The notes under the pieces were generated by a model. That model made no database searches. It worked only from the letters and a program-made list of their open reading frames with translations, and had not been told where the DNA came from. Of a DNA stretch of 36,554 bases, positions 17,820-31,835 are shown piece by piece. Within the stretch, counting starts at the first letter, position 1; every line of letters begins with the position of its first letter. The DNA is taken from the NCBI GenBank assembly GCA_937863605.1, contig CALMGN010000069.1:1-36554 (forward strand). The letters are read 5' to 3'. The translations under genes and the position numbers were made by a program. This stretch comes from an uncultured Anaerolineaceae bacterium. Its GTDB lineage: Bacteria; Chloroflexota; Anaerolineae; Anaerolineales; Anaerolineaceae.

Positions 17820-18476
17820 ATGCATCCGATCCCCAGAAAAACAACTCCTCATGTGCTAACCTATATCATCCTGGGGGGATTGCTGCTGGGTCTCCTCGTT
17901 GCCTGGCAATGGAATCGCGCCACAGGTGTGCAAAAAACTGCCGGCCTGCCAAACCAATCTGCTGATCGATCGGCAACGCCGGTATACTTTTTCTCAGTCC
18001 CAGCCCAACCTACCGAAGAGACTCTTACAATTAACCTCGGCGCCCCGGCAGTCGGCACAATCGCTCCTGACTTTGTGCTCTTTGACGTTAACGCAAATCC
18101 TTTTCGACTTTCAGAATTACGCGGCTCGGTCGTCGTGATTAATTTCTGGGCAAGCTGGTGCGACCCATGCCGGGAAGAAATGCCCATTCTTCAGGACCTG
18201 TACGAGCGCTATTCTATGGACGGCCTGATCATCCTGGGTGTGAATACGACCTACACTGATTCCTGGGAAGATGCTGTTTCCTTCGCTAAGGAATTGGGGC
18301 TGACCTTCCCGATCCTGTTTGACGACACGGGTGCTGTGGGCGAAACCCTGTATAAAGTATTTGGTTTACCGACATCGTATTGGATCGATCGTGATGGGGT
18401 CATCCGGTCATTCCAATTAGGGGCGTTAACCGAAGACCAGATGCTGGTGATCCTCTCCTCATTATTAGAACTCTAA
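17820..18476 (+). CDS. Membrane-anchored TlpA/ResA-like thioredoxin
   Basis: A 218-residue protein with one N-terminal membrane anchor (about 12-31), a Thr/Pro-rich linker and an AhpC-TSA/Redoxin-type thioredoxin domain from about 75. The motif NFWASWCDPCREEMP holds the active CxxC (114, 117), and GLPTSYWIDRDG carries the cis-Pro loop. It is likely to reduce apocytochrome c or copper-site thiols outside the cell. A second protein of the same type is encoded at 20901. The ATG at 17820 has no clear ribosome site, and no good operator copy is found in the 188 bases upstream. Only degenerate half-matches were seen there. Confidence 0.88.
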   Translation: MHPIPRKTTPHVLTYIILGGLLLGLLVAWQWNRATGVQKTAGLPNQSADRSATPVYFFSVPAQPTEETLTINLGAPAVGTIAPDFVLFDVNANPFRLSELRGSVVVINFWASWCDPCREEMPILQDLYERYSMDGLIILGVNTTYTDSWEDAVSFAKELGLTFPILFDDTGAVGETLYKVFGLPTSYWIDRDGVIRSFQLGALTEDQMLVILSSLLEL

Positions 18477-18564: not shown

Positions 18565-18598
18565 CAAACCATAGCCTGTCCAAAAAAGGAGAATTCCC

Positions 18599-19090
18599 TT
18601 GGCGCGGTCTAAAACTAAATTACCTCCACGCAAAGCCCGAAGAAAGAACGTTCCCATTTGGTTGATACTGAGTGGGATTGGTTTGATTTTGGTAGCATTG
18701 GTCGTGTTTCTCAGCTCCATCGGTCCTAAAAAGGCTGATATCGAAGTGACCGGAGCCCCGAAACTCAAAGTTGAACAGGAAGTTTACGATTACGGCGATG
18801 TCAAATTGGGTGGCGTCCCCATTCGGACGGTGGTTAAAGTCACGAATGTTGGCGACCAACCGCTGCGATTTAAAGAAGCGCCGTATGTCGAAGTATTGGA
18901 AGGGTGTTGACCGCCTAATCCTGCCATCGGTTCGATGGCTCTCAAACCCGGTGAGACCACCAATATTTCCATGGAATTCTTCATGCACGGCGATATGGGA
19001 GGTTATCATAATTTCAGCCTCCACCTGGTCACCAACGACCCGGCAGAACCCGATAAAACCATCTCCATCCGCTCCAATTGGGTTGAGTAA
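18599..19090 (+). CDS. DUF1573-type membrane-anchored protein, probable selenoprotein (Sec at codon 104)
   Basis: Read with TGA at 18908-18910 as selenocysteine, this is a 163-residue protein with a basic N-terminus, one membrane anchor (about 19-42) and an extracytoplasmic beta domain. The domain has DYGDVKLGGVPIRTVVKVTNVGDQPL, typical of DUF1573. After EVLEGC comes the TGA, and the same frame goes on for 59 codons (PPNPAIGSMALKPGETTN, then MEFFMHGDMGGYHNFSLHLV) to a TAA at 19088. As I recall, related Chloroflexota proteins have Cys-Cys-Pro-Pro here. The TGA is ordinary stop in hemB, hemC, hemD, hemE, hemL and lgt, so the code is not reassigned. Start is TTG at 18599 after AGGAG. A premature stop is the alternative, but the intact downstream frame argues against it. 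Confidence 0.82.
18908..18939 (+). promoter_or_regulatory. Putative bacterial SECIS element
   Basis: After the TGA, GCCATC (18923-18928) and GATGGC (18934-18939) form a 6-bp stem with loop GGTTC; an inner G-C pair could shorten the loop to GTT. Counting the U of UGA as 1, the loop has G22, G23 and U24. These are the same positions as the SelB-binding G23 and U24 of the E. coli fdhF element as I remember it. Spacing from UGA to loop is 18 nt, within the usual bacterial range. Confidence 0.7.
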
Positions 19091-19094
19091 TGAT

Positions 19095-19125
19095 AAAGAG
19101 CGCCCTGGAACACAGGGCGCTCTTT
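19095..19125 (+). terminator. Intrinsic terminator after the DUF1573 gene
   Basis: A perfect 12-bp stem (AAAGAGCGCCCT / AGGGCGCTCTTT) with loop GGAACAC, four bases after the TAA at 19090. The stem ends in TTT. Its place directly behind the TAA, not behind the TGA, supports the longer reading of the gene. Confidence 0.75.
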
Positions 19126-19150: not shown

Positions 19151-20149
19151 ATGTCTCTACAAAACACCCCCCCACCGCAAGAAGAAATTTCCATGCCTGA
19201 ACCAACGCAGAGTGTGCTTCCTCGTCGCCGTCAGGATCTGCGCCGCGGCGCCAGACCCTGGTGGCTGCTGGTCGCCATTCTGACCTATGTGATGGGTTTG
19301 GCCAGTGGATACGGAATCTGGGGTCGACAGCAATCGGCAGGCCAGGCCAAAAGCAATCCTTCCGCAGAATATGCAGCACTTGTAGAGCAAATTAACCCGA
19401 AGGAGGGATATATTCTCCCGGTCGATTTTGGCGACCTTGGCCCTCAAATGATGGCAGCCGGGGTTTTTGACCGTGAACAGTTTATTCAAGTGTATCAAAA
19501 TGCCAATCAGCCGCTGACCAATGACCAGATGTCCATGCTGGACGGGACACACAGCGGTCCGGTGGTAATGAACAACGAAAACGCCTATTTCCTGCTCAAT
19601 TTCCTGTGGGGGCTGGGTCTTTCCAACAATAATCCAGTGCTCGATTCCGGCGCCATTCAAAAAAGCGGTCAAAATGGCGTTGAGGGTTTTGCCTCAACCG
19701 GCGGATGGACTTTGGCCACAAAGCCTATTCGGGAGATCTTCTCTACCTCTAAACATTTTGTCCTGAATGCGGAGCAGCAAAAACGCCTGGAAGAAGCCGC
19801 GGCTGCAGTATACCGCCCCTGCTGCGACAATCCGACGCATTTCCCGGACTGCAACCACGGCATGGCCATGCTGGGCCTGCTCGAATTGATGGCTTCACAA
19901 AATGTCAGCCTGGGAGAGATGCTGGAAGCCGCGAAATATGTCAATGCATTCTGGTATCCACAGCAAACCCTTGAACAGGCCGTCTATTTCCAGAATACAG
20001 AGGGCAAAGCCTACCAGGATGTGGAAGCGAACCTTATCCTTGGGTTCCAATATTCTTCGTTGTCCGGTTTCAAGCAGATTCACCAGCTTTTGGAAACGAA
20101 TGGCTGGCTGCCGCAAGCTCCGAATGGTGGCGGGAGCTGCGGCGTGTAA
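19151..20149 (+). CDS. Membrane-anchored Cys-rich protein of unknown function
   Basis: A 332-residue protein with one N-terminal membrane segment (about 38-58) and a long extracytoplasmic domain. Its centre has VYRPCCDNPTHFPDCNHGMAMLG (about 219-241), where three Cys and two His are arranged like a metal or haem ligand set, and the C-terminus ends GGGSCGV. I do not recognise a named family. Helices with Leu and Tyr dominate the second half. The ATG at 19151 is used; its ribosome site (AGGA, 12 bases away) is distant, and an ATG at 19193 is possible. A terminator lies on each side, so its promoter is either read-through or within 19126-19150. Context suggests a role in copper or cytochrome assembly. 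Confidence 0.78.
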   Translation: MSLQNTPPPQEEISMPEPTQSVLPRRRQDLRRGARPWWLLVAILTYVMGLASGYGIWGRQQSAGQAKSNPSAEYAALVEQINPKEGYILPVDFGDLGPQMMAAGVFDREQFIQVYQNANQPLTNDQMSMLDGTHSGPVVMNNENAYFLLNFLWGLGLSNNNPVLDSGAIQKSGQNGVEGFASTGGWTLATKPIREIFSTSKHFVLNAEQQKRLEEAAAAVYRPCCDNPTHFPDCNHGMAMLGLLELMASQNVSLGEMLEAAKYVNAFWYPQQTLEQAVYFQNTEGKAYQDVEANLILGFQYSSLSGFKQIHQLLETNGWLPQAPNGGGSCGV

Positions 20150-20900: not shown

Positions 20901-21491
20901 ATGACGGATACCAATTCGGAATTAATTGCGGTATTCCAGCCGGAACAAAAACCGCCATCAAAATTCTGGTCTGCAGGCGGCCGATATTTTGTTGTCTTTC
21001 TAGTGGTTGGGTTGATCGCACTGCTGGCCTGGGGGTTGGTGCAGGCATCAAAGACGCCTTTGGAAGAAGGCATGGCGCCTGATTTTACTTTAACCAGCTT
21101 CGACGGTAGCACCTATACCCTTTCCGATTTGCGCGGACAGGTGGTCATCATCAACTTTTGGGCATCCTGGTGCCCGCCCTGCCGCGAAGAGGCCGCTTAC
21201 CTTGAACGCACCTGGCGTAAATACAAGGATCAGGGTGTCATTTTCATCGGGGTGGATTATGCCGACGCAGAAAAGCCAGCCCTGGCTTATATCGATGAAT
21301 TTGATATCACCTATTTTAACGGCCCCGACCTGGGCACTCGCATTTCGCAGCAATTCAACATTAAAGGGGTGCCAGAAACCTATTATGTGGCTAAGGATGG
21401 CACCCTGCGGGGCAATCACATTGGTCCGTTGTTCCCACCGGAGCTGGATAACCGCATTGACGAGTTGTTGAAAGAGACGTACACAAAATAA
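20901..21491 (+). CDS. CcmG/TlpA-like membrane-anchored thiol reductase
   Basis: A 196-residue protein with one membrane anchor (about 29-49) and a thioredoxin-like domain. MAPDFTLTSFDGSTYTLSDLRGQ leads to the active motif NFWASWCPPCREEAAYLE (CxxC at 91 and 94), and KGVPETYYVAKDG carries the cis-Pro loop. CcmG/DsbE proteins reduce the haem-binding cysteines of apocytochrome c before ligation. The neighbours CcmF, CcmH and a CcmI-like protein in the same operon support this more specific role over a general TlpA. The ATG has GGAG five to six bases upstream. Confidence 0.9.
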   Translation: MTDTNSELIAVFQPEQKPPSKFWSAGGRYFVVFLVVGLIALLAWGLVQASKTPLEEGMAPDFTLTSFDGSTYTLSDLRGQVVIINFWASWCPPCREEAAYLERTWRKYKDQGVIFIGVDYADAEKPALAYIDEFDITYFNGPDLGTRISQQFNIKGVPETYYVAKDGTLRGNHIGPLFPPELDNRIDELLKETYTK

Positions 21492-21507: not shown

Positions 21508-23607
21508 ATGATCCCAGATATTGGTTTAATTGCTCTGGTCATTGCATTCGGCATGTCCGTCTATGCGACTTTGATGGCGATCAATGGTGAGTGGTCTCAA
21601 CAGGCGCGCTGGGTGGCTAGTGCCCGCAATGCGACTGTAGCTGTTTTTGGGCTGTTAACGATTTCAGTTCTGACAGTAGTCTATTCCTTATATGTGATGG
21701 ACTTCTCTCAGGCGTACGTAGCCGATGTATCCAGTACCGCCATGTCGCCTTTTCTGCGCATCACCGCCTTATGGGGCGGTCAGCAGGGGTCGGTCTTGTT
21801 CTGGGCTTGGATGATGGCTGGTTTTGTTGCTGTGGTCGTACTGCGAAAGTGGGAGTCAAACGCAGCTTTAATGCCTTACATCATCTTCGTCGCCATGTTG
21901 ACCACAACCTTCTTTGTGGGGGTGGTGGTGTTTATCACTAACCCGTTTACGAAAATGTGGCTTGTGCCTGGCGCAAAGGATCTGGTAATCGCCATTTTTC
22001 AGCCAGCCAATGGACAGCAATATATTCCGTATAACGGATCCGGGCTCAATCCCTTGTTGCGGCATTTCGGCATGATCGGCCACCCTCCGACGACCTATTT
22101 AGGCTTTACTGGCTTTGTGATTCCATTTGCCTTCGCCATCGCGGCACTGATGAAAAAAGACACCGTCAGCGATTTATGGATCCGATCGGTCCGCCGCTGG
22201 ACTCTGGTAGCCTGGATTTTCCTTTCGATTGGCTTGATCCTTGGCGGCCGTTGGGCTTACGACGTTCTGGGCTGGGGTGGTTTCTGGGGATGGGATCCTG
22301 TAGAAAATGCCATGCTCATGCCCTGGCTCACAGGCACCGCTTTCCTGCATTCGGTCATGATGACCGAAAAACGCGGCATGCTAAAGCGTTGGAATATCCT
22401 GCTCATCATCTTGACCTACTCCCTATCGCTGTTTGGCACCTTTATCACCCGCACCGGCGTAGTTGGGTCGGTGCACGCCTTCTCCAAGACCGCGCTGGGT
22501 CCAGCGTTTCTGGTGTTTATTAGCATCACATTTATCGGAGCAATGGTGCTGCTGATGTCCCGCTGGAATGACCTCAAATCTGAACATGAGATGGAGAGCA
22601 TCCTTTCCCGGGAGGCAGCGTTTGTTCTGCAAAATATGCTTTTCCTGGCCATTACCATTGCGGTCCTCTGGGGCACAGTCTTCCCTTTGATCACCGAGTT
22701 GTTTACCGAGACCAAGATCACCGTCGGACCGCCGTATTTCAAGCAGGTGACCGGACCCATGTTCATGGCGCTGATTACCCTCATGGGTATCACACCCCTT
22801 TTGGCATGGCGAAAACAATCTCCCCGCAAGCTGCTTTTGCGGTTGGCTGTCCCATTATCAGGTTCAATCGTCGCAGCCATTGCTTGGGCGTTGCTCCATC
22901 CGAAATCGCAGCTTATTTCCATTTTTTCCATGGGGATGGTGTTTTTCGTGATCATCTCCATCCTGGCGGAATTCTGGCGCGGTACCAGCATTCGCATGTC
23001 CACTCGCGGTGAGAATCCACTCCTGGCGCTGATTAAGTTGGTGATGAACAACCGCCGTCGGTTTGGCGGATATATCATCCACCTGGGTGTAGTGATGATT
23101 GCGCTTGGTTTCATTGGCGATGCTTTCTATAAACAGGAAACTCAGGGAACCGTGTCGGTCGGTGAATCGCTGACCATTGGCGAATACAGCTTACGCTTTG
23201 ACGGGTTGGAAAGCTATATGGGCTCAGACGGCCGCGAAATTGTCGAAGCGAAAACTATGCTATTCAAAGATGGCCAGCCAGTTAAAGAACTTCGCCCGCG
23301 GCGTGACTATTTCGTCGTACAGGAGCAGCCTGTAAGCATTGCCGGAGTACTTTCCACGCCTGCCGAGGACGTGTATGTACTGCTGGTTGGTTGGGAAACC
23401 GTGAGCAACCAGAGTTCGACATTTAAGATCTATGTGAATCCCTTGATCAATTGGGTTTGGATCGGAGGCTTTGTACTCGCGTTTGGGGTGCTGATTGGCG
23501 CATGGTCCAAGTCTCGCGGAAATGGTGAAGCCACCTACTCGCTCAAAAACAGGTCGGATGAGCTGGCAGGCGTTGTCCCGGTAACACAAGTCAGCACCGG
23601 AGATTAA
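21508..23607 (+). CDS. ccmF: Cytochrome c haem lyase subunit CcmF
   Basis: A 699-residue membrane protein with about 15 hydrophobic segments. The haem-handling WWD region reads WGGFWGWDPVENAMLMPWL (256-274), the usual CcmF/CcsA tryptophan-rich motif with slight change. LWGGQQGSVLFWAW (about 88-101) and FITRTGVVGSVHAFS are also typical. A large extracytoplasmic domain near the C-terminus (about 550-640) precedes a final membrane segment. CcmF works with CcmH and CcmI to attach haem to the CxxCH of apocytochrome c on the outer face of the membrane. The start follows GGAG, 16 bases after the CcmG-like gene. CcmA, B, C and E are not in the window. Confidence 0.95.
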   Translation: MIPDIGLIALVIAFGMSVYATLMAINGEWSQQARWVASARNATVAVFGLLTISVLTVVYSLYVMDFSQAYVADVSSTAMSPFLRITALWGGQQGSVLFWAWMMAGFVAVVVLRKWESNAALMPYIIFVAMLTTTFFVGVVVFITNPFTKMWLVPGAKDLVIAIFQPANGQQYIPYNGSGLNPLLRHFGMIGHPPTTYLGFTGFVIPFAFAIAALMKKDTVSDLWIRSVRRWTLVAWIFLSIGLILGGRWAYDVLGWGGFWGWDPVENAMLMPWLTGTAFLHSVMMTEKRGMLKRWNILLIILTYSLSLFGTFITRTGVVGSVHAFSKTALGPAFLVFISITFIGAMVLLMSRWNDLKSEHEMESILSREAAFVLQNMLFLAITIAVLWGTVFPLITELFTETKITVGPPYFKQVTGPMFMALITLMGITPLLAWRKQSPRKLLLRLAVPLSGSIVAAIAWALLHPKSQLISIFSMGMVFFVIISILAEFWRGTSIRMSTRGENPLLALIKLVMNNRRRFGGYIIHLGVVMIALGFIGDAFYKQETQGTVSVGESLTIGEYSLRFDGLESYMGSDGREIVEAKTMLFKDGQPVKELRPRRDYFVVQEQPVSIAGVLSTPAEDVYVLLVGWETVSNQSSTFKIYVNPLINWVWIGGFVLAFGVLIGAWSKSRGNGEATYSLKNRSDELAGVVPVTQVSTGD

Positions 23608-23611
23608 ACCG

Positions 23612-24130
23612 ATGTCAAAAATACGATTCCTGATCATTTTCTTGTTGACGGCGCTGGCCGCTCTGCTTGTGACGGTCAATGTATTGGCCCAAGATCCCGC
23701 ACCAACGACCGCCCCGCTTGTGTCCATCAGCGACAATGACGTTAATCTGGTAGCAAAAAAGTTGTACTGCCCGGTTTGCCCCAACACACCGCTCGATGTG
23801 TGTGAAACTAAGGCGTGTAAAGACTGGCGGGCGCAAATCAAAGATCAACTCTCCCAGGGCTGGACCGAGGAAGCCGTAATCGATTATTTCGTCACGCAAT
23901 ATGGTGAACGCGTGCTGGCTGAGCCAGAACGGGGCGGTTTTACCTCTCTGGTTTGGATATTGCCTGTGTTAATTTTCGCACTTGGTTTGGTTATGGTGTG
24001 GCTGGTTCTAAGGAGTTGGCGTAGTAAACGGATTTCTCAACCAGCAGTGTTGGCACCCACACCCGCGTCATCCGGACTATCAAAAAGCCTGTTGGATAAA
24101 ATCGAAGCCGAAATCCGCAAGGTAGATTAG
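23612..24130 (+). CDS. ccmH: Cytochrome c maturation protein CcmH
   Basis: A 172-residue protein with a signal peptide (1-26), the CcmH domain and one C-terminal membrane segment (about 112-134). The redox motif is KKLYCPVCPNTPLDVCETKACKDWR. Cys53 and Cys56 match the LRCxxC pair of CcmH; Cys64 and Cys69 are extra. The later VIDYFVTQYGERVLAEPERGGF is the usual CcmH helix motif. CcmH holds or reduces apocytochrome c thiols for haem ligation. It begins four bases after the ccmF stop. The second Cys pair could allow an added disulfide exchange or metal binding. Confidence 0.92.
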   Translation: MSKIRFLIIFLLTALAALLVTVNVLAQDPAPTTAPLVSISDNDVNLVAKKLYCPVCPNTPLDVCETKACKDWRAQIKDQLSQGWTEEAVIDYFVTQYGERVLAEPERGGFTSLVWILPVLIFALGLVMVWLVLRSWRSKRISQPAVLAPTPASSGLSKSLLDKIEAEIRKVD

Positions 24131-25041: not shown

Positions 25042-25842
25042 ATGACTAAATTAACTCCGACCTTCTCAAAATCTCAAGGATCCACCCGTTGGACCACATT
25101 CTTCCATGCCTGTCTGTTCGTCGCCGGGTTTGCATTGGTATTCATCATTGGCTGGGGCGGCGCAGCCACCCTGTTCGGCCAGGTCTTCGCCTCGATTAAA
25201 ACCATCCTGGCCCGGGTTGGCGGAATTCTCATTATCACGTTTGGTCTCTCGACCCTTGGCTTATTCCGCCTACCATGGATGTATTATTCGGATACCCGGC
25301 CAGCCATGCCCGGATTGGGTAAATCAGGTGGTTGGGCATCGTCCGCATTGATGGGGGTTGTATTCGCCGCCGGCTGGACGCCGTGCATTGGCACGACGCT
25401 GGGCGCTATCCTCACCCTCGGCTTCAGCCAGAACGGAGCTGGCCAGGCCATGTTGCTCGCCAGCGGTTACGCATTGGGCCTGGGCATTCCGTTCCTGCTC
25501 CTTGGGTTGGGTGTTGACCGGGCAGTAGAATTCATTGGCCGCTTCCGCCGCTATGCGCGTATTTTTCAGATCGTCAACGGCGTTTTCCTGATTGCCCTTG
25601 GATTGATACTATTATTTAACAAAATGACGCTCATATCCATCTTGGCGCAGAAGAACGGCTGGTACTTTGACCTGTCCTTGGCTGGAGCGATGACGCCATC
25701 GTATCTTCTGTCGATTGCAGCTGGCATGATTTCCTTCTTTTCACCATGCGTTTTACCACTGGTGCCTGCGTATCTCGGTTATTTGAGCGGCCGCGCGACC
25801 AAAGGGGGGGAATTTACGGCGGTTAAAGCCACCGTGAATTAA
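25042..25842 (+). CDS. CcdA-type membrane thiol transporter with permuted segment order
   Basis: A 266-residue membrane protein with six hydrophobic segments. In usual CcdA the order is SFFSPCVLPLVPAYLGYLSG first, then HALLFVxGFALVF, then GWTPCIGPxLG. Here HACLFVAGFALVF comes first (about 24-36), AAGWTPCIGTTLGAIL follows (about 111-126), and ISFFSPCVLPLVPAYLGYLSG is the last segment (about 231-252). Both half-domain cysteines of CcdA are kept, but the first helix has moved to the end, as in a circular permutation. The two ends would sit on the same side as needed. CcdA supplies electrons to CcmG-like thioredoxins. It has its own operator and promoter and its stop overlaps the convergent DUF1461 gene. 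Confidence 0.86.
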   Translation: MTKLTPTFSKSQGSTRWTTFFHACLFVAGFALVFIIGWGGAATLFGQVFASIKTILARVGGILIITFGLSTLGLFRLPWMYYSDTRPAMPGLGKSGGWASSALMGVVFAAGWTPCIGTTLGAILTLGFSQNGAGQAMLLASGYALGLGIPFLLLGLGVDRAVEFIGRFRRYARIFQIVNGVFLIALGLILLFNKMTLISILAQKNGWYFDLSLAGAMTPSYLLSIAAGMISFFSPCVLPLVPAYLGYLSGRATKGGEFTAVKATVN

Positions 25843-27219: not shown

Positions 27220-27324
27220 GGGATCGTGATGGGGTTGCGTAAGTTCCCCCTTCGCAAGCCGTTAATTTTTATGATCACCTGCCGCTGCGACAGGAAACCA
27301 TCAAAAGAAGGAGCAAAAAATCGC

Positions 27325-29934
27325 ATGGCAACATTGAACAATCCTTTAGCGCTCACGCTTCCAGTGGAAGGAATGACTTGCGCCTCGTGCGTTGGTCATG
27401 TGGAGAAAGCACTGACAGAATTACCGGGCGTTTCCGACGTAGTTGTCAACCTCGGGACGAATAAAGCCAACTTAAATTACGACCCTGCCGAAGTGACCAT
27501 TCCTCAGATGCAAAAAGCCATATCTGACATTGGGTATGGTGTCCCAACGGATGAAATTACACTGCAAGTATCCGGGATGACGTGCTCGTCCTGCGTGGGG
27601 CATGTGGAAGGCGCATTAAGAGGGTTACCCGGGGTGGTGGACGCGACTGTCAACCTCGGGCTGGAAAAAGCGCGCGTCCGATTTATTCCCGGGGTAGTGA
27701 CCCCTTCACAAATGAAACGGGCTGTGGCGGATGTAGGCTATCAGGCAATAGAACAGACCACGGGAAAGGATCATCTTGACCGGGAACGCCAGGCGCGGGA
27801 ATACGAGATCAAACGCCAGGGCAGGAACCTGATTATTGCCGGGACCATCGGCGTTTTGGTGATGATAGGCACCTTCTACGACATGCTTGGCCCCGTCCAA
27901 AAATTCATTCCCGAATTCCTATCCTACAAGTGGGTTCTCGGACTGTTGACGACCCCCATTGTCTTCGGCCCGGGCCGGCAGTTCTTTGTCAATTCCTGGC
28001 GCGGATTGAAACACGGCGTCACCGACATGAACTTGCTCTATGCCACTGGAATCGGCGCGGCTTACGGCATCGCGGTGATAAACACGCTGTTCCCGACAGC
28101 TGGTTTCGGCGGCGAAGGCGCGACCTTTTTTGAGAGTGCAGCCCTTTTAACGGCCTTTATCGTCCTCGGTCGGTGGCTGGAAGCCCTAACGCGCGGGCGA
28201 ACCTCCGAGTCGATCCGTAAGCTGATGAAACTCCAGCCCAAGGTGGCAAATGTAATCCGCGATGGCCAGGAAATCACGATGGCCGCGGAGGATGTGGAAG
28301 CTGGCTTCTTGATCCAGGTTCGGCCAGGTGAGTCGATCCCGGTGGATGGTACGGTCCAGGACGGCTACAGTGCCGTGGACGAGTCCATGTTGACCGGCGA
28401 GAGTATGCCGGTTGATAAGAAAGCCGGTGATGCGGTGATCGGCGGCACGATCAACAAAACTGGCGCATTCCGGTTCGTCGCCACCAAAGTAGGCAAGGAT
28501 TCGGCACTGGCACAAATCATAAAGCTGGTGGAAGACGCCCAGGCCAGCAAGGCGCCCATTCAAAAACTGGCAGATTGGGTTGCTGGCCATTTCATTCTCG
28601 GCGTCCACCTGCTGGCTGTGTTGGTTTTCATCTTCTGGTTCTTTGCTGGCTATAACCTGTTCTTTGATGCCAGCAGCCGCTTTATTCTGTCACCGTATGC
28701 GCTGGGTGACATTGGGGTCTTCGGTTTTTCGCTACTCCTTTCCGTGACCGTGCTGGTGATTTCCTGCCCGTGCGCTGTTGGATTGGCTACCCCCAGCGCC
28801 ATGATGGCGGGCACTGGCAAGGCTGCCGAATATGGTGTGCTTTTCAAAGGCGCAGAGGCGATTGAAAATGCCAATAAATTGCAGACGATTGTTTTCGATA
28901 AAACCGGCACCCTCACCAAAGGCGAACCATCGGTGACGGATATTGTCCTCGCGAATGAAGGCATCAACACCGACCGGCAACAAAGATTGAATATATTGCG
29001 CTATACAGCCATTGCTGAAAAGAACAGCGAGCATCCACTGGGTGAAGCCATCGTCCGCGGCGCACAAACCGAAGGCGTGGTCCTCTCTGAACCCGATTGG
29101 TTCAACTCGATCCCCGGACATGGAGTTGAAGCGCACATTGAAGGCGCTGCCGTATTGGTCGGTAATCGAAAGTTGATGTCCGAAAAAGGTATCGGTTTTC
29201 AGTCGATGATGGCACAGGCTGAAAAACTTGAGGGTGAAGGGAAAACCGTAATGTTCGTAGCCCTGGACGGGTCCCCGGCCGGGCTGATTGCTGTGGCGGA
29301 CACGCTCAAAGAGACATCGGTTGAAGCCATTCGCCGTCTGCGGCAGATGAAATTGGAAACGGTGATGATCACTGGCGATAACCAGCGCACCGCCGAGGCG
29401 ATCGCACGCCAGGTGGGCATTGATCGGGTATTGGCTGAGGTTTTACCGCAGGACAAAGCTGAGGAGGTGAAAAAGCTCCAGGCACAGGGTAAACGGGTGG
29501 CGATGGTAGGCGACGGCGTAAATGATGCGCCGGCGTTGGCTCAGGCTGAGGTCGGCATAGCAATCGGGTCCGGTACCGATGTTGCCAAAGAGACCGGCGA
29601 TGTGATCCTCATCAAGTCGGATCTAAACGATGTGATCGTCGCCCTGGAGGTCGCGCGCGCCACCATGAATAAAGTCAAACAAAACCTTTTCTGGGCGTTC
29701 ATCTATAACACCCTTGGCATCCCGCTGGCAGCCGGCTTGTTTTACCCGGCTTTGAAACTGGTCGTCAGCCCTGAGGTAGCCTCGGCTTTCATGGCCATCA
29801 GTTCGGTTTCGGTAACGCTCAATACCCTGCTGCTGAAGGGTTTCAAACCCTCCACCTTACGCAAATCCAGGCGGACGAAGCCTGATAAACCATCGGTCGG
29901 TCAATTGGCACCCTCAACCACCAGCGGCGATTGA
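27325..29934 (+). CDS. copA: P1B-type Cu(I)-exporting ATPase
   Basis: An 869-residue ATPase that pumps Cu(I) out of the cytoplasm. It has two N-terminal HMA domains (GMTCASC with Cys19/22, GMTCSSC with Cys87/90), eight membrane segments, the ion-site motif [13 protein letters not shown] (Cys481, Cys483), the actuator motif TGES, the phosphorylated Asp525 in [21 protein letters not shown], and [15 protein letters not shown]. All core residues are present. The ATG at 27325 has AAGGAG 11 bases upstream; the frame is open to 27226, the predicted transcription start, so those extra codons are not used. A small membrane protein gene follows after 22 bases. Confidence 0.96.
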
Positions 29935-29956
29935 GGAGACAGGAAGGAATATAAAA

Positions 29957-30184
29957 ATGGAAACGGAAGCTGTAGATCGTGAAATCGCACGAAAAAGCGC
30001 TGCAAGGTATCTGACAATAACCGGGGTGGTAGCGCTGCTTTTCTACGCCATTACAGGGTGGATTGGTACCTACCCATGGGTCGCACGGATTGGGGGCGTG
30101 GTATGGATCAGTTTATTGACCTTGATTGTCTCCATGCCGGTGGTGACATCAAGGATGAAGAAGCAGGTGAAAGCGTTGAAGTAA
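29957..30184 (+). CDS. Small two-helix membrane protein after copA
   Basis: A 75-residue protein with two membrane segments (about 18-38 and 43-64) and charged ends (METEAVDREIARKSAARY at the start, MKKQVKALK at the end). No Cys or His-rich motif is seen. The family is not recognised. It begins 22 bases after copA with a GGAAGGA-like ribosome site, so it is in the copA transcript. It may support or stabilise CopA, but this is only from position. Confidence 0.7.
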   Translation: METEAVDREIARKSAARYLTITGVVALLFYAITGWIGTYPWVARIGGVVWISLLTLIVSMPVVTSRMKKQVKALK

Positions 30185-30225
30185 AAAAGGTTGCGGCTAA
30201 AATTATGTATAATTAAGATCAATAT

Positions 30226-30292
30226 AGGCATAAATGCTTAGTTTTTATCCCGCAAAATGGCGCTTTGCCACGAGCGGGATATTGCTTATGAT
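30226..30292 (+). promoter_or_regulatory. Palindromic operator (30226-30239) with -10 box TATGAT
   Basis: AGGCA-TAAA-TGCTT, extended TAGGCATAAATGCTTA, is close to the consensus. TATGAT (30287-30292) begins exactly 54.5 bp from its centre, with TTGCCA 16 bp upstream as a -35. The start site near 30299 gives a 45-nt leader before the multicopper oxidase gene. Confidence 0.78.
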
Positions 30293-30343
30293 CGAGCAGA
30301 CCATCCGTACATCATCTCAGAAATTCGAAGGATTAAACCGATC

Positions 30344-31414
30344 ATGCATTGGATCAAAGTTGGCTTGCTGTTCACACTCCTCCTGGTAATTACTGGCTGT
30401 TCGAACAGCCTACCGAAAATTCCTGAGCCAAGCCAAACCGAAAACGGTGTATCAGCGGTAGCAGCAACCCCAACCCCTGGAAGGATGACCAGCGTGGAAG
30501 GTAATCACATGATGGAACCGATATCCGGCGACCCGCAAGGGGGAGTATCCACAGAGAAAGGCGGCCAACCACTGGCTTTCACGCTGGACGGGGACACCAA
30601 AGTGTTCGAGCTAACAACCAGAGCGGTGAATTGGCCCATTCTGGATGAGGTGGTGGCGGCAGCCTGGACATATAACGGCACCATCCCCGGACCGATGATC
30701 CGAGTCACGGAAGGGGATAAGGTGCGGATCAACCTCAAAAATGAATTGCCTGTGCCAACCACGATTCACTGGCACGGCATCGCTGTACCGAACGCCATGG
30801 ACGGCATACCCAATGTCACCCAGGATCCGGTTGCGCCCGGGGAAAGCTTCACTTATGAGTTTACTGCCAGCCCGGCCGGAACCTATATGTACCACTCTCA
30901 TTTTGAAGGAGATATCCAGGTTAGTGCCGGCCTTTATGCGCCGTTCATCATCGACCCGACAGAACCGACAGCTACCCAACCCGATGTCGATGTGAATCTT
31001 ATGTTTTCCGAGATGCTGATTAAGGACGGGCAGACCTTCGCCGCCATGCCCATGGCTGGGATGGAACCAAATTACTTCACGATCAACGGCAAGGCATTTC
31101 CGAATACGGAAACCATTGAAGTGAAGAAAGGGCAGCTCGTCCGGTTGCGGCTGACCTCCATCGGTCAATTCGTTCACCCCATCCATTTGCATGGCGTGCC
31201 GTTTAAAATCGTCGCAACCGACGGCCATCCGGTGCCCGAAGCAGCACAATTAACCAAAGATACGGTGTTGGTGGCACCCGGGGAACGCTATGATATTGAA
31301 TTTGTTGCCACCGAGCCAGGCCAATGGATGCTGCATTGTCATATTCTGCACCATACCACCAACGATAATGTCGAGCCTGGCGGTTTGATGCTGATGATAA
31401 ACGTCTCTGAATAA
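30344..31414 (+). CDS. Two-domain multicopper oxidase lipoprotein
   Basis: A 356-residue lipoprotein (lipobox VITGC near residues 15-19) with two cupredoxin domains. The first has TIHWHGIAVPNAMDG and GTYMYHSHFEGD; the second has HPIHLHGVPFKIVATDG and WMLHCHILHHTTNDNVEPGG. These supply the HxH pairs of a trinuclear copper centre and the His-Cys-His of a type 1 site. With two domains it is shorter than CueO, and it may form a trimer like other two-domain oxidases. Oxidation of Cu(I) or organic substrates outside the cell is likely. The ATG at 30344 follows AAGGA; an upstream open frame to 30257 lies before the promoter start and is not used. Confidence 0.9.
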   Translation: MHWIKVGLLFTLLLVITGCSNSLPKIPEPSQTENGVSAVAATPTPGRMTSVEGNHMMEPISGDPQGGVSTEKGGQPLAFTLDGDTKVFELTTRAVNWPILDEVVAAAWTYNGTIPGPMIRVTEGDKVRINLKNELPVPTTIHWHGIAVPNAMDGIPNVTQDPVAPGESFTYEFTASPAGTYMYHSHFEGDIQVSAGLYAPFIIDPTEPTATQPDVDVNLMFSEMLIKDGQTFAAMPMAGMEPNYFTINGKAFPNTETIEVKKGQLVRLRLTSIGQFVHPIHLHGVPFKIVATDGHPVPEAAQLTKDTVLVAPGERYDIEFVATEPGQWMLHCHILHHTTNDNVEPGGLMLMINVSE

Positions 31415-31439
31415 ACGCAAAACATTAAGGAGAACATTT

Positions 31440-31835
31440 GTGATGAGCGTTCGAAGAATTTTACCGTTTTTGGCGCTTGGATTGATCCTGATCCTGGCAG
31501 CCTGCTCTGGGTCCTCAGATAAAGCAAACCCGAATTCTGAAAGTTATACAGTGACCATGAATGTGCTGCCCGATCCTCCGGTCGTGGGAGACGTGCTGCT
31601 CTACTTTACGGTTTTGGATGCGCAGGGCGTTCCAATCAGCGGAGCGACTGTGGAAGTCGGTGCGGATCATATCGATATGACTGGCATGGGCATGCACGGA
31701 CCTGCGACCGATCAAGGCAAAGGAATTTACGCGGTGACGACGAATTTCTCGATGAGCGGGAATTGGAAAATTAGTGTTCGCCTTGAGGATGGAGCCAAAA
31801 CCTATTCAAAGGAATTTCAGTTAATCATCCAATAA
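31440..31835 (+). CDS. Lipoprotein with YtkA/FixH-like domain
   Basis: A 131-residue lipoprotein (signal peptide with lipobox LAAC, Cys22) and a beta-sandwich domain of about 95 residues: YTVTMNVLPDPPVVGDVLLYF, GVPISGATVEVGADHIDMTGMGMHG, then GIYAVTTNFSMSGNWKISVRLED. This pattern is typical of YtkA-like domains. The Met-rich DMTGMGMHG loop could bind Cu(I). It follows the multicopper oxidase by 25 bases in the same operon, so a periplasmic copper delivery role is plausible. Start is GTG at 31440 with AGGAG seven bases upstream, or ATG at 31443. Confidence 0.82.
   Translation: MMSVRRILPFLALGLILILAACSGSSDKANPNSESYTVTMNVLPDPPVVGDVLLYFTVLDAQGVPISGATVEVGADHIDMTGMGMHGPATDQGKGIYAVTTNFSMSGNWKISVRLEDGAKTYSKEFQLIIQ

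Follow-up and report, generated by a model that had tools for sequence, protein, structure and literature searches.

The window considered here (the whole 36,554-nucleotide stretch of DNA that was analysed) lies on contig C69 of the 2.86-Mb, 92% complete genome of an uncultured Anaerolineaceae bacterium. It carries a gene for a protein with a DUF1573 domain, together with genes for thiol-redox, cytochrome c maturation and copper proteins (Table 1). The DUF1573 reading frame, beginning at TTG 18599, contains a single in-frame TGA (18908-18910, codon 104) directly after a Cys codon (TGT) and then remains open for 59 further codons up to a TAA, as had been described in a first-pass annotation of this DNA that took the TGA for a selenocysteine (Sec) codon. 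The motif at this point is EGC-U-PP. UGA is an ordinary stop elsewhere in the window, as that annotation had also stated, ending 10 of the 33 main genes, and in none of these ten TGA-terminated genes do more than 45 open codons follow the stop. Directly 3′ of the gene, where a perfect terminator had been proposed, there is indeed a perfect 13-bp inverted repeat (arms 19095-19107 and 19113-19125), but only TTT follows, within the repeat, and the element is absent from the output of a terminator scan.

On the reading developed below, the UGA at codon 104 would specify Sec, with SelB and tRNA-Sec as the decoding factors and a SECIS hairpin, beginning 12 nt after the UGA, as the signal. The product would have 163 residues and consist of an anchor in the membrane at its N-terminus and an extracytoplasmic domain of the DUF1573 (Ig-like) type, in which a vicinal Cys103-Sec104 pair is found.

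Table 1. Positions of the gene, its elements and its neighbours in the window
Feature	Position	Strand	Evidence
ResA/TlpA-like thioredoxin-fold protein, immediate upstream neighbour	17820..18476	+	domain search
Ribosome-binding site AGGAG, 5′ of the TTG start	18586..18591	+	read directly from sequence
Predicted DUF1573 selenoprotein gene, 163 residues with UGA as Sec, stop TAA 19088-19090	18599..19090	+	sequence and comparison
Predicted N-terminal membrane anchor helix (residues 20-39), Lys/Arg-rich tail before anchor	18656..18715	+	AlphaFold model helix 20-39; sequence
Cys103-Sec104-Pro105-Pro106, UGA 18908-18910 as predicted Sec104	18905..18916	+	TGA in 100 contexts, TGT/TGC in 9
Putative bacterial SECIS hairpin, stem GCCATC/GATGGC, loop GGTTC (18929-18933), starting at +16 from the U	18923..18939	+	folding, covariation, bSECIS constraints
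Codons Met129-His130-x-x-Met133-x-x-x-His137, possible metal ligands	18983..19009	+	M129, M133, H137 invariant
Perfect 13-bp inverted repeat directly 3′ of gene, terminator-like, without long T run	19095..19125	+	sequence
332-residue neighbour with YRPCCDNPTHFPDCNHG motif, no Pfam/NCBIfam match	19151..20149	+	domain search
Second ResA/TlpA-like protein	20901..21491	+	domain search
CcmF and CcmH cytochrome c maturation genes	21508..24130	+	domain search
DsbD/CcdA-type transmembrane protein	25042..25842	+	domain search
Copper P-type ATPase (two HMA domains), multicopper oxidase, YtkA-like protein	27226..31835	+	domain search

The recoded codon across relatives

A search of 101 genomes (the source genome and its relatives) identified 24 homologues scoring above 100 bits, in 22 genomes including the source, and all 24 have exactly one in-frame TGA, at the aligned codon. 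With 396 further Anaerolineae genomes added, codon 104 is TGA in 100 distinct homologous contexts and TGT or TGC in nine, and no other codon occupies the position among full-length class members. The G-C-U-P motif is present in every one of the 100 TGA contexts. The alignment of homologues at residue 104 that had been proposed as a check therefore finds Cys, TGA and nothing else, and the suggestion that the UGA stands where homologues have Cys holds at the same residue in a form from Pelolinea (L020, with GCCPP at the recoded site) and in eight others. In nine genomes from other Chloroflexota classes every homologue has one TGA and none is a Cys form, and a scan of contigs, considering close relatives only, returned matches solely from Chloroflexota.

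A quick tree of 108 sequences requires five changes between Sec and Cys, four of which are imposed by branches with good support; Sec and Cys have thus switched about five times on this tree, Sec being the usual state in the Chloroflexota subfamily. Within the genus, dN/dS 3′ of the UGA is about 0.07-0.13, and this part of the sequence is under purifying selection. Were the UGA an ordinary stop, the gene would encode a truncated protein of 103 residues and its 3′ part would either be decaying or form a unit of its own, a reading in keeping with the ten window genes that UGA does terminate. The conserved residues and the dN/dS of about 0.1 downstream, the exchange of TGA with Cys codons only and the covarying hairpin described below all argue against this, however, and we regard it as very improbable. 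Less credible again is the idea that a TGC or TGT at 18908-18910 was misread in sequencing or altered in assembly: the Cys codons at this position in nine relatives would fit such an error, but it is refuted by the recurrence of the same TGA, together with the hairpin, in 100 distinct contexts that were assembled independently.

Additional copies were seen in some genomes. G226 has a tandem pair of genes in the same orientation (L082, 7077-8079), one a Sec form and the other a Cys form that has lost the hairpin. In G342 (L089, L118 and L121) three copies are Sec forms and one is a Cys form. An extra, frame-shifted Sec copy is found in G309 (L128) and an extra broken copy, a C-terminal fragment, in G071 (L051).

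The SECIS hairpin

The hairpin loop GGUUC places GGU at +22 to +24 from the U of the UGA, where the SECIS of E. coli fdhF also has its GGU. No SECIS family match was returned by Rfam, either for the whole window or for 18850-19000, and the hairpin was therefore judged by published constraints and by covariation. The bSECIS model specifies a loop of 3-9 nt with G in its first two positions, a stem of 4-16 bp, a UGA-to-loop distance of 16-37 nt and a minimum free energy of -7.5 kcal/mol or lower (PMC13188914). The hairpin at 18923-18939 lies within all of these limits, with its 5-nt loop, 6-bp stem, spacing of 18 nt and folding energy of -10.5 kcal/mol. In the window sequence alone, about 11% of synonymous recodings pair equally well, making the hairpin only moderately unusual, and the proof consequently rests on comparison.

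The covariation set comprised 110 distinct UGA-form sequences, after removal of two that carry an insertion of one codon. Pairing is found in 99.1% of stem cells, a share that is no higher than 68% in controls with the partner strand slid by 1-3 nt, and two-sided (compensatory) changes occur at five of the six stem pairs. None of 500 shuffles matched the observed pairing, although such counts cannot be read as probabilities because the sequences are related. The loop is mostly [GA]GUNN, with G at +23 in all 110 sequences and U at +24 in 108. Codon choice carries the pattern beyond what the protein sequence would demand: the codon at +18 is GTC or ATC in 99 of 99 scored UGA forms, whereas elsewhere in the same genes GTC accounts for 32% of Val and ATC for 53% of Ile codons, and that at +21 is GGT or AGT in 98 of 99, GGT making up 17% of Gly codons elsewhere. 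The Cys forms have neither preference. Within the genus, the hairpin codons show 0-1 synonymous changes, against a dS of about 0.7-2.4, where estimable, for the region 3′ of the UGA but outside the hairpin. The position given for the SECIS in the first-pass annotation, 12 nt after the UGA with GGU at 22-24, holds.

Eight of the nine Cys forms retain 1-3 of seven tested pairs. In the ninth, L020 from Pelolinea, which is sister to the window's genus group, the stem persists in weakened form, three of its pairs being G-U, and U24 is gone, the pattern to be expected of a decaying SECIS. In view of L020, the hairpin of the Cys forms is better called lost or decayed than absent.

Selenocysteine machinery

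The four genes for which a search of the genome had been advised are all present in the source assembly: selA (537 bits), selB (323.5 bits, above the curated cut-off), selC encoding tRNA-Sec (72.9 bits, above the Rfam cut-off, and also called by ARAGORN as tRNA-SeC with anticodon tca) and selD (L016, G000:C110:30577-31509), which itself has one in-frame TGA and so is probably a selenoprotein gene. Amongst class genomes with a UGA form, 63 of 64 have at least one Sec-machinery gene. selA is found in 56 of the 64, and seven of the other eight have tRNA-Sec or selB above cut-off; in the remaining genome, G225, selA, selB and tRNA-Sec all score below their cut-offs, perhaps owing to an incomplete assembly. 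Five genomes have Cys forms alone, three without selA and two with the full set, a trend that fits loss of the machinery but is weak and blurred by incomplete assemblies; being partial, this association was left out of the proof.

Readthrough without Sec could also come about by reassignment of UGA (to Trp, for example) or by suppression with a near-cognate tRNA. Nothing but the readthrough itself speaks for this; UGA is a stop elsewhere in the window, the site is occupied by Cys but in no case by Trp in homologues, tRNA-Sec, SelA and SelB are present and the SECIS-like hairpin is tied to the UGA forms. We consider it highly unlikely. The comparative evidence instead demonstrates recoding, a SECIS and Cys/Sec exchange, and the Sec insertion claimed for codon 104 is upheld by 100 TGA contexts exchanged only with Cys, a covarying hairpin and the presence of the Sec genes. 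Gene 18599-19090 almost certainly encodes a genuine selenoprotein.

Domain structure and conserved residues

The window protein scores 26.4 bits against DUF1573 (PF07610), for which the Pfam cut-off is 26.1, the match covering residues 56-152 of the readthrough protein and hence both sides of the TGA; its relative L091 reaches 42.6 bits. A basic tail is followed by a hydrophobic anchor (helix 20-39 in the model) and the DUF1573 domain, which we infer to lie outside the membrane. In an AlphaFold model built from five alignment rows, taken from the window and related loci, residues 52-163 form a confident Ig-like sandwich with strands A (56-69), B (75-83), C (89-101), D (about 109-115), E (120-127), F (135-145) and G (152-162). 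The best solved structure for model residues 52-161 is 2qsv (Z 13.9, rmsd 1.8, 102 residues), a match that gives the model the Ig-like/PapD-like fold of DUF1573, and sequence searches of solved structures returned chiefly Hydin-type Ig repeats.

Gly102, Cys103, Sec/Cys104 and Pro105 are invariant across the Sec and Cys forms. So too are Met129, Met133 and His137, kept in 99 of 99 scored Sec forms and 9 of 9 Cys forms, with His130 and Phe139 nearly invariant. In the model the Cys-Sec pair falls in the C-D loop and the Met-Met-His set in or just after the E-F loop, which by the standard alternation of Ig strands would put both at the same end of the sandwich.

Gene neighbourhood and possible function

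The nearest window neighbours of the selenoprotein gene are thiol-redox and cytochrome c maturation genes; HMA proteins are also encoded in the window, beside the copper ATPase, multicopper oxidase and YtkA-like protein. The neighbourhood of distant relatives differs from this. Across 20 long loci of relatives the recurrent neighbours are PCYCGC proteins (13 loci), NapH-like ferredoxins (11), cupredoxin-cytochrome c proteins (11) and COX2-like cupredoxins (10), with a copper ATPase in six, and the recurrent PCYCGC/cupredoxin/NapH-like set looks like an uncharacterised electron-transfer system. In L085 (5891-9798) PCYCGC, COX2-like cupredoxin, NapH-like ferredoxin and cupredoxin-cytochrome c genes surround the subfamily member, and a similar PCYCGC/cupredoxin/ferredoxin set is seen in L082, L084, L086, L087 and L089-L092. 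A relative of the 332-residue window protein encoded at 19151-20149 adjoins the Pelolinea Cys form (L020, 2991-3995).

The candidate Cu(I) ligands of a putative copper chaperone (Cys, Met and His) are invariant in the subfamily. Our best guess is that the window protein is a membrane-anchored, extracytoplasmic Ig-fold protein that may act by Cu(I) binding or thiol/selenol redox chemistry in copper or cytochrome assembly. Copper handling appears the most likely single function, with the chances about evenly balanced, and is favoured because of the invariant Cys-Sec-Met-Met-His set and the copper and extracytoplasmic electron-transfer neighbours. Cys103, Sec104, Met129, Met133 and His137 would together bind Cu(I), and the copper and cytochrome c proteins encoded nearby would receive it from this protein, or would have thiols or copper reduced by it. 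That Sec serves as a physiological copper ligand, in an anchored extracytoplasmic Cys-Sec-Met-Met-His Cu(I) protein widespread in Chloroflexota, is put forward more tentatively; if true, a Sec-ligand protein would supply or reduce copper for a cupredoxin, a multicopper oxidase or cytochrome assembly.

The first-pass annotation had favoured a strong extracytoplasmic redox site, which is possible. Cys-Sec would then form a vicinal selenenylsulfide redox couple working with TlpA/ResA and CcdA/DsbD to keep haem-binding or copper-site Cys residues reduced, any metal being incidental. The two ResA/TlpA-like proteins, CcmF, CcmH and CcdA-type protein flanking the gene fit such plain thiol chemistry equally well, and vicinal Cys-Sec pairs are redox-active in other selenoproteins, animal thioredoxin reductase (GCUG) having one. 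However, Met129, Met133 and His137, as invariant as the Cys-Sec pair itself, are left unexplained, and TlpA, CcdA and CcmF are not common neighbours of most relatives. We hold this purely redox role to be plausible but short of an even chance; given the invariant Met and His residues, a copper role seems at least as likely as a redox site.

Comparison with known systems

The first-pass annotation knew of no described DUF1573 selenoprotein, and in this it was mistaken. OS_HP2, assigned to pfam07610 with the motif UxC, was listed in a 2008 GOS paper (PMC2398784), and two selenoprotein reviews include a DUF1573 selenoprotein whose motif is UGC; this protein (OS_HP2, NF041425) has thus been on record since 2008 (PMC2398784, PMC9312934, PMC13188914). 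OS_HP2 resembles the window protein in having a PF07610 domain with Sec in the region of a Cys motif. Its Sec precedes Gly-Cys, however, lying two residues before the Cys, whereas in the Chloroflexota subfamily Sec directly follows Cys (GCUPP), with G-C-U-P rather than UGC in 100 of 100 contexts. The window protein scores 19.8 bits against NF041425, where the cut-off is 100, and the best of 25 subfamily members reaches an E-value of only 9.7e-10 against the OS_HP2 model. A 2026 inventory of 119 prokaryotic selenoprotein families and subfamilies divides the proteins that share a domain into subfamilies according to where their Sec lies, and a DUF1573 protein with CU is not among its 119 entries. 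For these reasons (failure against the OS_HP2 model, CU in place of UGC, the inventory's division by Sec position and the lack of an entry) the Chloroflexota CU-type proteins appear to be a new, unlisted selenoprotein subfamily. This reading, selenoprotein and Chloroflexota subfamily together but leaving aside any role in copper handling, is very likely correct.

The subfamily, which numbers around a hundred members within a single phylum, is missing from the 2026 inventory and has no NCBIfam model, and its genes are for this reason probably annotated as truncated or missed at present. The roughly five switches between Sec and Cys, of which two fall in genomes where Sec copies persist as well, amount to a natural experiment, and the other conserved residues point to metal binding as a candidate property. 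The advantage of Sec over Cys at an extracytoplasmic, possibly copper-binding site is thereby made directly testable.

Ordinary DUF1573 proteins with a CGC motif share the Ig-like domain, the N-terminal anchor and Cys in the same loop region, but have C-x-C rather than C-U and lack Sec, a SECIS and the Met-His set of the subfamily. One such protein, the second DUF1573 protein of the source genome (contig C61; L159, 1234-1797), has a TTCGCT motif, adjoins a PCYCGC protein and a cupredoxin-like protein and comes closest to OS_HP2, at 62.9 bits, below the cut-off.

Other CU-motif selenoproteins are SaoL, HgcA, MbdU and the CopZ-like Csac_0668, several of them named for metal or organometal chemistry (PMC13188914); a vicinal Cys-Sec is what they have in common with the window protein, the families being different. 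OS_HP4/CYCXC (PCYCGC, PF13798), the neighbour in 13 of 20 loci, belongs to another family again, of small Cys proteins with known Sec forms. The copper chaperones PCu(A)C and Sco are extracytoplasmic, use Met, His and Cys ligands and are found near copper enzymes. The window protein is of a different family but has candidate Met/His/Cys ligands like theirs.
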